A DNA stretch of 52,133 nucleotides, from contig NZ_JAPUVO010000140.1 in NCBI RefSeq assembly GCF_029255185.1, positions 1-52,133 of the forward strand. Reading direction: 5' to 3'. Below are positions 25,299 to 31,382 of this stretch, piece after piece. Source of the DNA: Propionivibrio sp. (GTDB lineage: Bacteria; Pseudomonadota; Gammaproteobacteria; Burkholderiales; Rhodocyclaceae). Within the stretch, counting starts at the first letter, position 1, and every line of letters begins with the position of its first letter. The notes under the pieces are model-generated. The model saw nothing but the letters and a program-made list of their open reading frames with translations, did no database searches and was not told the DNA's origin. Position numbers and translations under genes: made by a program.

Positions 25299-28200
25299 AT
25301 GCTTAATAAAGCGAAACTTCAGGCGGTTCTGAATTCCCAAAAAACGAAAAAATATGCGCTTCGGGTTCTACTTGCCTTTGTCATTGTCGGAGTTCTTGGG
25401 TTTTTTGTACTGCCGCCGCTGGTCAAATCGACGCTGCTTGAGCAACTGGGCAAAATCCTGCACCGTCCCGTTGCCGTCAAGAGCGTCAGCATCAACCCGT
25501 ACGCCCTGTCCATTACCCTTGAGGGCGTTGCCATTGCTGAGCGTGAAGGCGGGGAGACCTTTGCCAGTTTTGACCGCCTGTATCTGAATTTTGAATCGGC
25601 GTCCATTTTTCGGGGTGGGCCGGTCATTGGCGAAGTACGCTTGCTCAACCCCAGGCTCAGGGTCGTTCGCCTGTCAGACAAGCGTTACAACTTCTCAGAC
25701 CTGTTTGACGAATTCATGGCCAAACCCAGGAACGACGATCCAACACCGCCGTTCTCGCTCAACAACATTCAACTCACCGGCGGGGTGATCGAATTCGACG
25801 ACCGCCCGCTTGACGAAAAGCATGTTGTCAGCGACATCAACCTGTCCTTACCCTTCATTTCAAGCATGGCCTATGCCATTGAAAGCTTTGTCGAGCCCGT
25901 ATTTTCGGCGCGTATCGACCAAGCGCCGGTGCTCATCAAAGGCAAGAGCAAGCCATTCGCCCGCTCGTTGGAGAGTGAGGTCGCGATTGATCTTGATGAT
26001 CTGGAGTTGGCAAAGTACCTCGATTATGTTCCGTACAAATTGCCAATCAAGGTGCTATCCGGCACTCTGGAGAGCACACTGAAGCTCGCTTTCCATCAGG
26101 AAAAAGACAAGCCTTCGACACTGATTGTGTCGGGTACGGCGGCCATCAAGCAACTCAATGTCAATGATGCCTCCGGCGCACCGCTGCTTGCGTTCAAGCA
26201 ACTTGATCTGGCTATCGCTGCGGCCGATCTCTTGGGCCGCAAGTTCGTCATCGATCGTATTGCCGTGGATTCGCCGCAGATCAGTGCCCGCGTCAGCCGG
26301 CAAGGGACGATCAACTGGGTCGATCTTTTGCGCAATGAGCGGGCGGCTGGCAAGCCAAATCCGCCTGCCGCCAAAAAGCCGGAGCCTTCAGCACCGCTTG
26401 AGTGGTCACTCGGCGAGGTGAAGGTGGTCGGCGGTGTGCTGCGCTGGCTTGACGAGTCGCATGGCAGGCCGTTCAAGGCCAGCATTGAAGCCATCGAAGT
26501 CAATCTGAAGAAGCTTAACAGCCAAGGCGTAACACCCGCCGAGTTTGATCTTGCCTGGCGAGTAATTGCCGACGAGTGGCTGAAAATCGATACCGTCTCG
26601 GTCAAGGGCGGGCAACTTGATCTGAGCAAACACGAAGTGCGGCTAGGCAACGTTTTGGCACGAGGCGTGCGCAGCCTCGTCCGGCGCACGCCCGATGGCA
26701 AGCTGGACTGGCTTGAGCCGCCTGCGCTGCGCGTTGTCGAGGCGACGCAGAAGGATACCTCGGCGCCCTGGAAGATCACGCTGGCCAAATATACCGGCGA
26801 TGATATCGGCATTCGTTTTGAAGACCGGTCGGTTTCTCCGGTGGCGACACAAACCATCGATGCCTTTGGCATTGAAATGGAAAATCTGTCGACCGAGCCC
26901 GGGCAGACGGCCAAAGTGACGGCGCGCCTCAAACTCAATCGCAAGGGTGAAATTTCACTCGATGGCACAGTGAGCCCCTTTCCGCTGTCTGCCAACCTGA
27001 ATCTCGATATCAAGACACTTGAGTTGCTGCCGCTACAGCCCTATTTTGCCGAGAAACTTAATATCGCCGTGACCCGCGGACAGTTGACAGTCAATGGCAA
27101 TGTGCAACTGCGTCAGGATGGTGCCGGCAAAAAAGCCGAGGCTCCGGCACTGGCAGGCAGTTTTTCCGGGCAGGCGACAGTGGGCGATTTCTATGCGGTA
27201 GATAAGCTCAACTCGGCGGATTTTCTGCGCTGGAAATCGTTCTACTTAGGCAAAATGGATGTGCATCTGAATCCGGATTCGGTTTCCATCGGCGAAGTGG
27301 CGTTGTCCGATTTTTTTGCGCGGGTCATTATCAGCCCTGAAGGCAAGCTCAACCTGTTGCAGATTGTTCGCAAGAATGATGAGGGTGCAGTTGCCGTCGT
27401 TCCGTCGGCGGTAGATCAGGGCGTAACACGCGCGGTGGTGAGCACTGCGGGCGATGGCAAGGCCGTTGTTGACGTGAATCCAGTGGCTAAGCCGGTAATG
27501 CCGATCAAGATCGGCAAGATCACCCTGCAAGGCGGCCATGTCAGATTCAGCGATAACTTCGTCAAACCGAATTACTCGGCGAATCTGAAGCAGATTGGCG
27601 GTCGCATTACCGGACTGTCGTCGGAGCCGAGCAGCATTGCCAATCTTGAGTTGCGCGGCAGTTACGATGACGTGGCGCCGCTTACCGTGAGCGCACAGAT
27701 CAATCCTCTATCGGCCAAACCCTATCTTGATTTACAGGCGGAGATCAAAGGCATCGAATTGACATCGCTCTCTTCGTACTCCGGCAAGTACACTGGTTAT
27801 GCGATCGAGAAGGGAAAGCTTTCCCTGTTCGTCAAATACAAGATTGAGAATGATCAGTTGACGGCCGAGAACCGGATCTTTCTCGATCAACTGACGTTCG
27901 GTGACCCCATTGCAAGCCCGAGTGCGACCAAGCTGCCGGTGACGCTTGCCGTTTCATTGCTGAAGAACAGGAAAGGTGAGATCGACCTCAACCTGCCCAT
28001 TTCCGGCTCGCTCAATGATCCACAGTTCAGCATTGGCGGCCTGATCATCAAGGTCATCGTCAATCTCTTCGTCAAGGCCGTGACCTCGCCCTTTGCCCTG
28101 CTCGGCTCGATGTTTGGCAGTGCTGAGGAAATGTCGACGGTCGAGTTCGACTATGGGCGGGCGGCGATTACCCCGGCCGCAGAGAAACGCATCGAGAGCC

Positions 28201-28712
28201 TGGCCAAGGCACTGACCGACCGGCCGGCGCTCAGGCTTGAGATCGAGGGGCGCGTCGATCTCGAGCGTGATCGCGAGGGCCTGAAGCAGGCGCGCATCGA
28301 ACGCAAAGTGCGGGCCTTGAAGCGCGAGGATCTGACGAAAAATTCTATCGAAAGCGGTTCGGCGGAAACGGTCGAGGTGAGCGCCCAGGAGTATCCGGCA
28401 TTGCTTGAACGCGTCTATCGTGCCGAAAAATTCCCCAAGCCGCGCAATATGGTCGGCATGGTCAAAGGGCTGCCGGTTGAGGAAATGGAGAAACTGATAT
28501 TGGCCAACTCAACGGTGGATGACGACGATTTGCGCGTGCTGGGTGAGCGTCGGGCGAAAGCGGTGCGCGACTGGCTGGTGGCCCACGAGGTGTCTGCTGA
28601 CCGCGTTTTTCTGCTACCCAGCAAACCCGTCGAAACGGGCGCCAAGTCGGACTCGGACGAAAAGGCCAAGAGTAGTCGTGTCGATTTCACGCTCAAAGTA
28701 TTTTCCAATTGA
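25299..28712 (+). CDS. Large DUF748 / AsmA-like envelope protein
   Basis: A 1137-residue protein with an N-terminal membrane anchor (about 20-42, ALRVLLAFVIVGVLGFFVLPPLV) and a long periplasmic region. SVSINPYALSITLEGVAI, FASFDRLYLNFESASIFR and VRLLNPRLRVVRLSDKRYNF match the DUF748 repeat found in AsmA-like proteins, which are thought to bridge the periplasm and carry lipids. NGNVQLRQDG, GKITLQGGHVRFSDNF and FLDQLTFGDP show the same module recurring. The C-terminal part (FDYGRAAITPAAEKRIESLAKAL) resembles an OmpA-type peptidoglycan domain. TTAATTACAGCTGG precedes the ATG. Specific cargo is unknown. Confidence 0.85.
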   Translation: MLNKAKLQAVLNSQKTKKYALRVLLAFVIVGVLGFFVLPPLVKSTLLEQLGKILHRPVAVKSVSINPYALSITLEGVAIAEREGGETFASFDRLYLNFESASIFRGGPVIGEVRLLNPRLRVVRLSDKRYNFSDLFDEFMAKPRNDDPTPPFSLNNIQLTGGVIEFDDRPLDEKHVVSDINLSLPFISSMAYAIESFVEPVFSARIDQAPVLIKGKSKPFARSLESEVAIDLDDLELAKYLDYVPYKLPIKVLSGTLESTLKLAFHQEKDKPSTLIVSGTAAIKQLNVNDASGAPLLAFKQLDLAIAAADLLGRKFVIDRIAVDSPQISARVSRQGTINWVDLLRNERAAGKPNPPAAKKPEPSAPLEWSLGEVKVVGGVLRWLDESHGRPFKASIEAIEVNLKKLNSQGVTPAEFDLAWRVIADEWLKIDTVSVKGGQLDLSKHEVRLGNVLARGVRSLVRRTPDGKLDWLEPPALRVVEATQKDTSAPWKITLAKYTGDDIGIRFEDRSVSPVATQTIDAFGIEMENLSTEPGQTAKVTARLKLNRKGEISLDGTVSPFPLSANLNLDIKTLELLPLQPYFAEKLNIAVTRGQLTVNGNVQLRQDGAGKKAEAPALAGSFSGQATVGDFYAVDKLNSADFLRWKSFYLGKMDVHLNPDSVSIGEVALSDFFARVIISPEGKLNLLQIVRKNDEGAVAVVPSAVDQGVTRAVVSTAGDGKAVVDVNPVAKPVMPIKIGKITLQGGHVRFSDNFVKPNYSANLKQIGGRITGLSSEPSSIANLELRGSYDDVAPLTVSAQINPLSAKPYLDLQAEIKGIELTSLSSYSGKYTGYAIEKGKLSLFVKYKIENDQLTAENRIFLDQLTFGDPIASPSATKLPVTLAVSLLKNRKGEIDLNLPISGSLNDPQFSIGGLIIKVIVNLFVKAVTSPFALLGSMFGSAEEMSTVEFDYGRAAITPAAEKRIESLAKALTDRPALRLEIEGRVDLERDREGLKQARIERKVRALKREDLTKNSIESGSAETVEVSAQEYPALLERVYRAEKFPKPRNMVGMVKGLPVEEMEKLILANSTVDDDDLRVLGERRAKAVRDWLVAHEVSADRVFLLPSKPVETGAKSDSDEKAKSSRVDFTLKVFSN

Positions 28713-28817
28713 GGTATGAGCCTGAAGGATCTGCGAAGCGAGTGATTCTGTGATGTAGATTGAAGGGTTGAAAAGGTCTGTTCGCTTCATATGCAATCAT
28801 CAAATAGGGAGAGCTAT

Positions 28818-29165
28818 ATGATCTATAAGGGTAGCTGCCACTGCGGCAAAGTGGCGTTCGAGGTTGAAGGTGAGATCAACGAGGCATTGGCATGCAATTG
28901 CTCTATTTGCTCACGCAAAGGTTCGCTTTTGTGGTTTATGCCTCGCGACAAGCTTCACTTGCTTACTCCTGAAGATTCAGCCAGCACATACACATTCAAC
29001 AAGCACCTTATCAAGCACCGCTTCTGCCCCATTTGTGGCATTCATCCGTATGGTGAAGGGATTGATCCGAAGGGAAATCAAATGGCTGCCATCAATATTC
29101 GCTGCCTTGAAGATATTGATATAGCATCTATCCCGGTGCAGAACTTCGATGGTCGTTCAATGTGA
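28818..29165 (+). CDS. GFA-family protein (glutathione-dependent formaldehyde-activating enzyme-like), probable gene cassette
   Basis: A 115-residue protein with the CENP-V/GFA zinc fold: YKGSCHCGKVAFEV (C-x-C), ACNCSICSRKG (Cys-x-Cys-x2-Cys) and HRFCPICGIHPYGEG (CxxC). Family members bind zinc, and some are linked to glutathione-formaldehyde adducts, but most have no proven activity. The ATG at 28818 is chosen for GGGAGA 6 bases upstream; an ATG at 28791 lacks this. An attC-like site starts 9 bases after the stop, as in integron gene cassettes, where GFA genes are often found. The 105 bases between it and the DUF748 gene show no attC or attI site. Confidence 0.88.
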   Translation: MIYKGSCHCGKVAFEVEGEINEALACNCSICSRKGSLLWFMPRDKLHLLTPEDSASTYTFNKHLIKHRFCPICGIHPYGEGIDPKGNQMAAINIRCLEDIDIASIPVQNFDGRSM

Positions 29166-29174
29166 GACGGTTTC

Positions 29175-29243
29175 GTTCAACCCATCCATCGAGCGGGACG
29201 CCGCGCAAAAGCAGCGCGGCGTCCTTCATGTCAAACGTTAGGC
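29175..29243 (+). repeat. Integron attC-like recombination site 1
   Basis: A 69-bp site running from the inverse core GTTCAAC (fits RYYYAAC) at 29175-29181 to the core GTTAGGC (fits GTTRRRY) at 29237-29243. Between them is a perfect 11-bp inner stem (GGACGCCGCGC / GCGCGGCGTCC) with an AAAAGCA loop, and weaker CATCGAG / CTTCATG arms placed like L-boxes. Size and layout match attC sites. Confidence 0.75.
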
Positions 29244-29271
29244 CTTTGGTTAATCAGCGATCTCATAAATC

Positions 29272-29730
29272 ATGAAGCGCCTTCGCAACATTTGCCGCAT
29301 AGACAATGCCTCCCTTAATAGGCATGGCTGGCATGTACAGATTCAACGGGGAGGCAACAGCATCAAAAAAATGTTCTCGGATAGCGTTTTTGGCGGGAAG
29401 CAAAAGGCTTTTGCGGCTGCCATTGAATTTCGAGAGTCTCTTATCACTTCGCTTTCTTCGGCGGAGTACAACCTGTGGCATCGGACAATAGTTCGGCGCA
29501 ACAACACATCGGGCATTCCGGGCGTTGGTCTTTACAAAGGAACGAATGACTCGGAAAAATGGGTAGCCTTCTGGACTGATGAAAATGGAATTAAAAAATC
29601 ACGAACATACTCGGTTAGCATCCACGGAAAGCGCAAAGCGAAACAACTTGCCATTGCCGAGAGACAGCGCCAGCTAGAACGGATAGTTGAAATCAAAAAA
29701 ACTCAAGTTGGCTGGCCTAACGACAGTTAA
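29272..29730 (+). CDS. AP2-like DNA-binding protein, probable gene cassette
   Basis: A 152-residue basic protein. The N-terminal part (ICRIDNASLNRHGWHVQIQRGG ... FSDSVFGGKQKAFAAAIEFRE) resembles the first unit, and NNTSGIPGVGLYK ... WVAFWTDENGIKKSRTYSVSIHGKRKAKQLAI the second unit, of bacterial AP2/ERF-like DNA-binding domain proteins. These domains also occur in homing endonucleases. The stop lies inside the following attC-like site, and another attC-like site lies just upstream, so the gene sits in a 535-bp cassette-like unit (29238-29772). The ATG has no clear ribosome site. Target and function unknown. Confidence 0.75.
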   Translation: MKRLRNICRIDNASLNRHGWHVQIQRGGNSIKKMFSDSVFGGKQKAFAAAIEFRESLITSLSSAEYNLWHRTIVRRNNTSGIPGVGLYKGTNDSEKWVAFWTDENGIKKSRTYSVSIHGKRKAKQLAIAERQRQLERIVEIKKTQVGWPNDS

Positions 29731-29779
29731 CCGGACCTGCGCGAAAAGCCGTGCAGGCCGGTTACTTCTACGTTGGGGC
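29715..29779 (+). repeat. Integron attC-like recombination site 2
   Basis: Inverse core GCCTAAC (29715-29721, fits RYYYAAC), then TTAACCGGACCTGC pairing with GCAGGCCGGTTA except for one extrahelical A, the kind of unpaired base that orients integrase binding. The core at 29772 reads GTTGGGGC, which departs from GTTRRRY at the last position. The AP2-like gene stop lies within the site. Confidence 0.65.
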
Positions 29780-29782
29780 TCG

Positions 29783-30037
29783 ATGAGAACTCGTGATGCA
29801 TTGTTTCTGCTTGTCATTAGTGGTGCTGCCTGTGCCGCCGACCTTGACACCGCTGCCTTGGACGAATTGGCGGCACAGCAGAAATACAAAGCGGTTGACG
29901 TAATACTCGGGCAGTTGCCAGAAAGTGACCCACAAGTAATCGCTTGTGCTTGCAGGCCGCCCCAAGTGAGCAAGCTTTCAATCCACTGTAAAGTACGAGC
30001 AGAATTGACTAAAAATTTTGAAAGAACCAATGAGTGA
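29783..30037 (+). CDS. Small putative secreted protein
   Basis: An 84-residue reading frame. Residues 1-18 form a signal peptide (RTRDALFLLVISGAACAA), followed by LDTAALDELAAQQKYKAVD, a helical segment resembling fragments of small secreted helical proteins, then a less protein-like tail. It begins 4 bases after attC-like site 2 and overlaps the first codons of rmuC. It may be a further cassette gene or a remnant. No function recognised. Confidence 0.4.
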   Translation: MRTRDALFLLVISGAACAADLDTAALDELAAQQKYKAVDVILGQLPESDPQVIACACRPPQVSKLSIHCKVRAELTKNFERTNE

Positions 30038-31382
30038 ATATTTGTTGTACGGGCTAGCAGCGCTTAGCCTTATCGTGCTTTTGTTGCAGCTTCTCTTATG
30101 GCATCGTGCCGGACGTCCGGGCGATTTGCTGGGGCCCTATTTCCGCTCGCTCGAAAGCGGTCTGGAACGGGTCGAGCGGGAATTGCGGCAGGAGATGGCG
30201 CGCGGGCGTCAGGACGCCGCAACAGCGGCCCGTGGGGACCGTGAGGAACAGTCGCAGGCGCTCGATCGCCTGTCCAAGACGTTGTCGGCCCAGGTCGGGC
30301 AACTGGGCGCTTTGCAGGGGCAGCAACTCGAAGCGTTTGCGCAGCAGTTGGCCCGCCTGACGCAGAGCAATGAGCAGCGTTTCGAACAGTTGCGCCTGTC
30401 CATTGAAGCGCGCCTTAGCGTCATGCAAGCCGATAACGCGAACAAGCTTGAGGAGATGCGCAAGACCGTCGATGAGAAGCTGCACGAGACGCTGGAGCAA
30501 CGTCTGGGTGACTCGTTCAAGCTGGTCAGCGAACGGCTGGAGTTGGTGCACAAGGGGCTCGGTGAAATGCAGACGCTGGCCGCCGGGGTCGGCGATCTGA
30601 AAAAGGTGCTGACCAACGTTAAGACCCGTGGCACTTGGGGCGAAGTGCAACTGGAGGCGCTCCTCGATCAGGTGTTGACTGCCGAACAGTTCGAAAAGAA
30701 TGTGATTACCCGCCCGAATAGTAGCGAGCGCGTTGAGTTCGCCATCCGTCTGCCGGGGCGCGAGATGGGCGAGGACGACAAACGTCCAGTGTGGCTACCG
30801 ATCGACGCAAAATTCCCCATGGAGGATTATCAGCGCCTGATTGAAGCCCAGGAGCGGGCCGACCCAGTGGCCGTCGAACTAGCCGCCAAAGCCCTGGAGA
30901 TGCGCCTGCGCGACGAAGCTAAGAAAATCCGCGACAAATATATCGAGCCGCCGTTCACCACGGATTTTGCCATTCTCTACCTGCCGACCGAAGGCTTGTA
31001 TGCCGAAGTACTGCGCCGTCCCGGACTGGCCGATGGCTTGCAGCGCGATTTTCGCATCAGCATTGCCGGCCCGACAACACTGGCGGCACTGCTCAACAGC
31101 TTACAGATGGGATTCCGAACGCTGGCTATTGAGCAGCGTTCGTCGGAAGTCTGGGGCGTCCTGGGAGCGATCAAAACCGAGTTTGGCAAATTTGGCGAAG
31201 CTCTGGAAAGCACGCGCAAGAAGCTTGAGCAGGCCACCCGCAGCATCGAATCCGCTGGCGTAAGGACCCGCCAGATCGAGCGCAAGCTCAAAGGCGTCGA
31301 AGCCCTGCCGGTGATCGAAGCGCAAGCCAGGCTGGGTGCACTGGAGGACATTGAGCCGGTTGACGTTGACGAGGAGGAATGA
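30030..31382 (+). CDS. rmuC: DNA recombination protein RmuC
   Basis: A 450-residue protein with an N-terminal membrane segment (about 3-22, EYLLYGLAALSLIVLLLQLLL), a coiled coil (about 40-190) and a C-terminal nuclease-like domain: LTNVKTRGTWGEVQLEALLDQVL, VEFAIRLPGREMGEDDKRPVWLPIDAKFP, and FAILYLPTEGLYAEVLRRPG, all RmuC signatures. RmuC limits DNA inversions at short repeats and is linked to phage defence in some systems. The ATG at 30030 is used; a TTG at 30018 is also in frame. Its stop overlaps the next ATG (ATGA), coupling it to the DUF3293 gene. Confidence 0.94.
   Translation: MSEYLLYGLAALSLIVLLLQLLLWHRAGRPGDLLGPYFRSLESGLERVERELRQEMARGRQDAATAARGDREEQSQALDRLSKTLSAQVGQLGALQGQQLEAFAQQLARLTQSNEQRFEQLRLSIEARLSVMQADNANKLEEMRKTVDEKLHETLEQRLGDSFKLVSERLELVHKGLGEMQTLAAGVGDLKKVLTNVKTRGTWGEVQLEALLDQVLTAEQFEKNVITRPNSSERVEFAIRLPGREMGEDDKRPVWLPIDAKFPMEDYQRLIEAQERADPVAVELAAKALEMRLRDEAKKIRDKYIEPPFTTDFAILYLPTEGLYAEVLRRPGLADGLQRDFRISIAGPTTLAALLNSLQMGFRTLAIEQRSSEVWGVLGAIKTEFGKFGEALESTRKKLEQATRSIESAGVRTRQIERKLKGVEALPVIEAQARLGALEDIEPVDVDEEE

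Follow-up and report, generated by a model that had tools for sequence, protein, structure and literature searches.

Gene cassettes between a DUF748 gene and rmuC in a Propionivibrio genome whose integron integrase lies on another contig

The question raised by the locus described here is how gene cassettes of the integron type might have come to lie between two host genes, a DUF748 gene and rmuC, with no integrase beside them. The locus belongs to a draft genome of Propionivibrio sp. (GCF_029255185.1; Rhodocyclaceae) and is contained in a stretch of 52,133 nucleotides (contig NZ_JAPUVO010000140.1, positions 1 to 52,133, forward strand; hereafter the window, on contig C140), in which an earlier sequence-only reading had noticed two attC-like hairpin sites around an AP2-like gene and had proposed a cluster of attC sites lacking an integrase (CALIN). 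By definition the locus is a CALIN: it holds two attC sites, its contig carries no integrase, and CALINs are reported from at least two attC by IntegronFinder 2.0, according to the available part of its description (PMC9024848). Beyond the definition, we consider it likely that this CALIN consists of a GFA cassette, an AP2-like cassette and the probable remnant of a third one without its attC, and that the cassettes were placed between the two host genes by an integron integrase (IntI) acting in trans.

The attC sites and the cassettes that they delimit

The sites were sought with a covariance model (R1) built on 20 attC seeds from the neighbourhoods of relatives' integron integrase (intI) genes (13 loci in 12 genomes), none of which came from the window or from its own genome. 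The seeds were chosen by eye from listed candidates, the remaining candidates being left out, and were oriented using the direction of the array and the GGAC arm. An attC-like structure was then written by hand onto their alignment (A1), of whose cells it pairs 79.6%, versus 28-43% when it is shifted by one to three columns. When the 52-kb window was scanned on both strands with the filters off, R1 gave high scores to both sites, at the places where the sequence-only reading had seen them (Table 1), versus 11.7 bits for the best unrelated place and 17.0 bits for the reverse strand of attC2. A search of positions 28500-30500 against Rfam returned five matches, all of them below the gathering scores and none to an attC family.

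Both sites are oriented in the same way as the genes and are separated by 471 bases. The core (GTTRRRY) and inverse core (RYYYAAC) motifs, which had been claimed for the two of them, are exact in both boxes of attC1 (R' GTTAGGC and R'' GTTCAAC) and in the R'' box of attC2 (GCCTAAC); the R' box of attC2 (GTTGGGG) does not follow the strict motif, since its last base is a G. Because of this departure, a finder combining regular expressions and folding recovered attC1 and missed attC2, so that a covariance model was needed. The single extrahelical base previously described in the stem of attC2 was found again as one unpaired A of the main stem (top strand). In attC1, the main stem is a perfect one of 11 bp and the L-box side is irregular.

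It is scarcely credible that these are ordinary genes flanked by fortuitous hairpins such as terminators. Strong-stemmed palindromes are indeed common, and one of the two sites has an imperfect R' box; however, the idea is contradicted by the R1 E-values (2e-10 and 4e-9), by the lack of any terminator-like site in positions 28500-30200 (versus 1.7 expected) and by the fact that the stretch is missing in relatives (see below).

In a circular cassette, the starting core is complementary to the R'' box of the attC at its end. This is the case for cassette 2, whose starting GTTAGGC is the exact complement of its terminal GCCTAAC (seven of seven bases), and nearly so for cassette 1, whose probable starting core GTTGAAA agrees at six of seven bases with the complement of the attC1 R'' box (GTTGAAC). 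Among the six other internal cassettes of the genome the complementarity is exact in five (three on contig C139, one on C132 and one on C49), the one on C81 departing from it. As for the cargo, the GFA gene has its stop at 29165, 9 bases before attC1, and the stop codon of the AP2-like gene (29728-29730) sits within attC2, both in agreement with what had been noticed at first. The span originally assigned to the element (29175..29779) does contain the two sites; it proved too short, in that 28768 is the probable start of cassette 1 and, beyond attC2, a third unit extends up to the start of rmuC. This unit is an open reading frame (ORF) that begins 10 bases past the cut point of attC2 and ends inside the start of rmuC, with no attC of its own. 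Since cassette genes often begin shortly after an attC cut point, it is probably a third cassette that was truncated together with its attC. The heptamer CCCCAAG near 29958, which comes close to the R'' box expected for this cassette, was dropped, as no hairpin could be seen after it by eye.

Table 1. Features of the locus between the DUF748 gene and rmuC (window coordinates).
Feature	Position	Strand	Evidence or remark
DUF748 gene, left host flank	25299..28712	+	Pfam DUF748, 1075.8 bits
Core GTTGAAA at the probable left boundary of cassette 1	28767..28773	+	Predicted from the cassette rule
Cassette 1 (GFA)	28768-29237	+	Left end probable
GFA-family gene, 114 residues from ATG 28821	28821..29165	+	Pfam PF04828, E 4.7e-14, scored on a longer frame starting at 28791
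attC1	29175..29243	+	R1 42.6 bits, E 3.7e-9
Cassette 2 (AP2-like), complete	29238..29772	+	R' and R'' exact complements
AP2-like gene, 152 residues	29272..29730	+	Pfam PF00847, E 8.7e-14
attC2	29715..29778	+	R1 47.4 bits, E 2.1e-10
Third ORF, 84 residues, without family	29783..30037	+	Probable truncated cassette (predicted)
rmuC, right host flank	30030..31382	+	Pfam RmuC, E 2.4e-76; ATG 30030 read by eye

The DUF748-rmuC junction in related genomes

The comparison of this junction among relatives, which had been suggested together with the sequence-only reading, was carried out on 27 genomes of the same genus, 16 of which have an rmuC match and 14 of which are readable; the count leaves out one genome in which the locus is cut by the contig (G018) and one with no DUF748 gene upstream (G019), and for G006, which has two equal-scoring rmuC matches, one was used. 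In all 14 genomes the DUF748 gene stands directly before rmuC, the distance from its stop to the rmuC match being 7-153 bases, versus 1326 in the window; the right end of these distances is where the rmuC match begins, not an annotated start codon, and in locus L103 the DUF748 stop was taken as the next in-frame stop after the match. No match to the GFA gene, the AP2-like gene or the third ORF (E up to 1e-3) lies between the two genes in the relatives, and R1 finds no attC match (E up to 5) in their 16 rmuC loci. The cassettes are thus absent in 14 of 14 readable relatives, and the stretch is not a vertical segment. Of the two findings that the sequence-only reading had named as contrary to it, low covariance-model scores at both sites and vertical conservation in all relatives, neither was obtained, the scores being those of R1.

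The base composition also sets the insert apart: its G+C content is 0.489, whereas the flanking genes have 0.557 and 0.601. Just four of the 1017 contig windows of the same length are as low, and every contig window within 0.01 of the insert value overlaps the insert itself. The DUF748 protein of the window ends with FTLKVFSN before its stop, versus F-x-L-K/R before the stop in 13 of the 14 relatives. At this end of the gene (window 28693-28712), the four extra residues, VFSN, look as if the stop had changed near the insertion, and therefore the left flank may have been disturbed.

The same comparison bears on the idea of an assembly artefact in which a contig of cassettes was joined to a housekeeping one. 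The genome is a draft of 141 contigs, and cassette arrays are hard to assemble, as stated in the part available of PMC9024848. Nevertheless, both flanks correspond to genes that are neighbours in the relatives, in the same order and on one 52-kb contig, and we regard such an artefact as very improbable.

An integrase elsewhere in the genome and insertion in trans

The profile of integron integrases (TIGR02249) has nine matches in the genome, none of which is on the window contig, as the sequence-only reading had said of the window. Its wording "integrase-less" holds locally, for C140, and does not hold for the genome: the search for an intI gene outside the window found a full-length one at C59:19905-20849, which with 502 bits is the sole match of the genome over the family cutoff (265). 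This gene is a 336-residue open frame without stops, and its residues R144, K169, H275, R278, H301, and Y310, which we take to be the catalytic set of IntI, are invariant among 15 aligned IntIs. Its product could move the cassettes of the window in trans. The contig ends about 265 bases beyond the start of the intI gene, and its last 150 bases contain an attI-like core (GTTAGGC), after which a reading frame begins and is interrupted by the end of the contig.

Matches to attC are scattered over the genome. The R1 scan of all contigs gave 17 matches at E up to 5, 15 of which have E < 0.03: four on C139, two each in the window and on C132, C49, and C81, and one each on C90, C117, and C124 (23.5-30.7 bits), that is, on seven contigs besides that of the window; the lowest two of the matches listed are at about 15 bits. 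In the genus, an integron integrase over the cutoff is found in 38 of 79 genomes and attC matches (E up to 0.001, stricter filters) in 43 of 59, the genome under study being included in both counts. In G010, an assembly of four contigs, a full-length intI is at most 4 kb away from 6 of the 15 attC; for the other nine, every full-length intI is either on another contig or more than 100 kb distant. In G026, with three attC, nothing exceeds the cutoff of the integrase profile. The finding of scattered cassettes in near-complete assemblies of the genus implies that the scattering is not only an assembly effect.

On these grounds, the following series of events may be proposed. The IntI encoded on C59 would act in trans on the folded bottom-strand attC hairpins of circular cassettes; recombination with a non-att site of the G/TT type just after the DUF748 gene would generate the core GTTGAAA at 28767; further cassettes would be added through attC recombination; and a deletion would have removed the end of the third cassette plus its attC.

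Two other routes have to be weighed. According to the first one, the locus is what remains of a whole integron whose own intI and attI disappeared in situ. The genome does have, on C49, what appears to be an integron decayed in this way, namely a 46-bit intI fragment and two attC close to it, and in G010 two of the outlying attC places are near partial integrase matches. However, no integrase profile match is found on the window contig, none of the 14 readable relatives has an integron at the DUF748-rmuC junction, and only 54 bases (28713-28766) separate the DUF748 gene from the first core; this route appears rather improbable. The second possibility is that IntI had no role, and that part of a cassette array arrived through ordinary recombination, homologous or illegitimate, or with the help of an insertion sequence. 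The ragged right end, with no attC before rmuC, would fit this idea, and such rearrangements may occur, as suggested by a frame presumably resembling an IS110 transposase beside the cassettes of C81. Nevertheless, the left end is core-like, with the match of six bases out of seven reported above, and Pfam detects no transposase among the three ORFs between the DUF748 gene and rmuC; hence, we consider it unlikely.

Insertion by IntI in trans, which we prefer, has in turn to face several adverse observations. The main stem of attC1 has no unpaired base, and free folding of the DNA leaves its R' and R'' arms unpaired. As the species differ in this intergenic stretch, neither the letters of the target nor the right boundary are fixed; indeed, the relatives lack the insert, yet their intergenic sequences are too different for the empty site to be read at base level. 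The third ORF is without a convincing homologue, and therefore it is its position that speaks for a cassette origin. In G010, some of the outlying attC are near partial integrases (C1:627523, 94.6 bits, with a stop; C3:264187, 88 bits), and therefore insertion in trans may not account for all of the outlying clusters. Lastly, no attC match is found near the closest GFA homologue (L167, 68%), near the AP2-like homologue on C61 of the same genome (41%), near the AP2-like homologues of 3 of the 398 other genomes of the order (L158-L160, 30-34%) or, at E < 0.1, near four of the five AP2-like loci retrieved by a wider search of genome contigs, and where GFA homologues do have attC matches beside them, the scores are low (20-25 bits).

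The element is of a known kind, and the picture of integrons is unchanged by it. The layout of a complete integron is not found, as neither intI nor attI lies beside the array of the window, the intI being on C59; the same lack distinguishes the locus from a sedentary chromosomal integron, even though its attC are of the same type as those of the arrays near relatives' intI. An attG site is cut after the G of a GWT triplet. Cassettes inserted at such sites were reportedly described by Loot et al. (2024, Nat Microbiol). The cassettes of the window share with those the chromosomal position away from the integron and, presumably, the G/TT-type left junction and the dependence on IntI in trans; here, unlike there, the empty site is not readable to the base, the right end is eroded and the case is known from its sequence alone. 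In the passages available of the respective papers, CALINs are regarded as degraded integrons (PMC9024848) and as mobilisable in trans (PMC11389934), the terms SALIN and CALIN are in use (PMC12690207), and CALINs away from intI in Xanthomonas and an attG spread in E. coli are mentioned (PMC12444791). Like CALINs in general, the locus has two attC of the same orientation in an array, cargo genes ending at the sites and no integrase on the contig; unlike them, it has only two sites with a probable truncated third cassette, and a full-length intI elsewhere in the genome. As in the Xanthomonas CALINs outside the ilvD locus, intI is at one place and CALINs at others; however, as far as the available part of that paper goes (PMC12444791), the places recur across species there, whereas here the junction is empty in the 14 readable relatives. 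The locus thus represents a natural case in which the genome has kept an integrase and the cassettes lie elsewhere, at a junction that is empty in relatives, and supports the view that chromosomes, and not just integrons, store cassettes.

Cargo genes and other cassette loci

As regards the GFA gene, whose family was called a frequent cassette cargo in the sequence-only reading, an attC match lies within 100 bases downstream of its homologue, in the same orientation, in 3 of 19 loci outside the window (L168, L180, and L176). The homologue of L168 (64%) is on the intI contig of G013, with an attC match on each side; at L177, an attC is found about 570 bases upstream.

The locus also points to the AP2-like gene as a cassette cargo. 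Pfam (E limit 1) finds two AP2 stretches in its product, and therefore a DNA-binding role is a fair guess for the predicted protein, which has no PADLOC match and a weak match to an HNH-endonuclease PHROG (E 0.005). The genome carries three AP2-like genes (in the window, on C81, and on C61), two of which are beside attC sites, and no homologue was found among the 45 other relatives searched. The remaining locus of the wider search (L186, 49%) belongs to a Sulfuricaulis metagenome-assembled genome (Gammaproteobacteria), where the gene stands between attC of 38.8 and 48.7 bits. One may speculate that small proteins with two AP2-like stretches constitute a family of DNA-binding regulators, whose members travel as integron cassettes between bacterial orders and act on the cassette clusters or host genes where they land, an idea that we regard as doubtful. 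A literature search on AP2 domains and integron cassettes returned, by title, only a phage genome and a Plasmodium recombinase, which is not proof that AP2 cassettes are unpublished; one combining integron, attC, and Rhodocyclaceae had no match, which is likewise not proof of absence.

For the third ORF, searches gave no plasmid, PHROG or PADLOC match. Among the 398 other genomes of the order, two gave weak matches (E up to 0.01), as did two of the 45 other relatives (E up to 0.1), G061 being common to both searches; none of these is a convincing homologue.

With regard to expression, the scan of positions 28500-30200 found one promoter-like site, inside the AP2-like gene, versus 1.4 expected. 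Since the three genes are co-directional with the DUF748 gene and rmuC and promoter-like sites do not exceed the number expected by chance, they probably depend on the host transcript for their expression.

Three other contigs of the genome deserve mention. On C139 (L150, 6434-8682), four attC on the minus strand are near the contig end and are a candidate for the array of the C59 intI; the last 300 bases of C59 and the last 600 of C139 (reversed) share no 11-mer, and in the absence of an overlap this assignment could not be shown. On C49 (L152, 10715-11237 and 11972-12127), the two attC are on the minus strand beside the integrase fragment, which is on the plus strand, and the whole looks like a decayed second integron. 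On C81 (L153, 5126-7065), two attC are followed by two other frames, presumably of a VOC/PhnB-type protein and of the IS110-like transposase mentioned above, and then by the AP2-like homologue (72%), whose end retains GCCTAAC, the letters of the attC2 R'' box, without an attC match.
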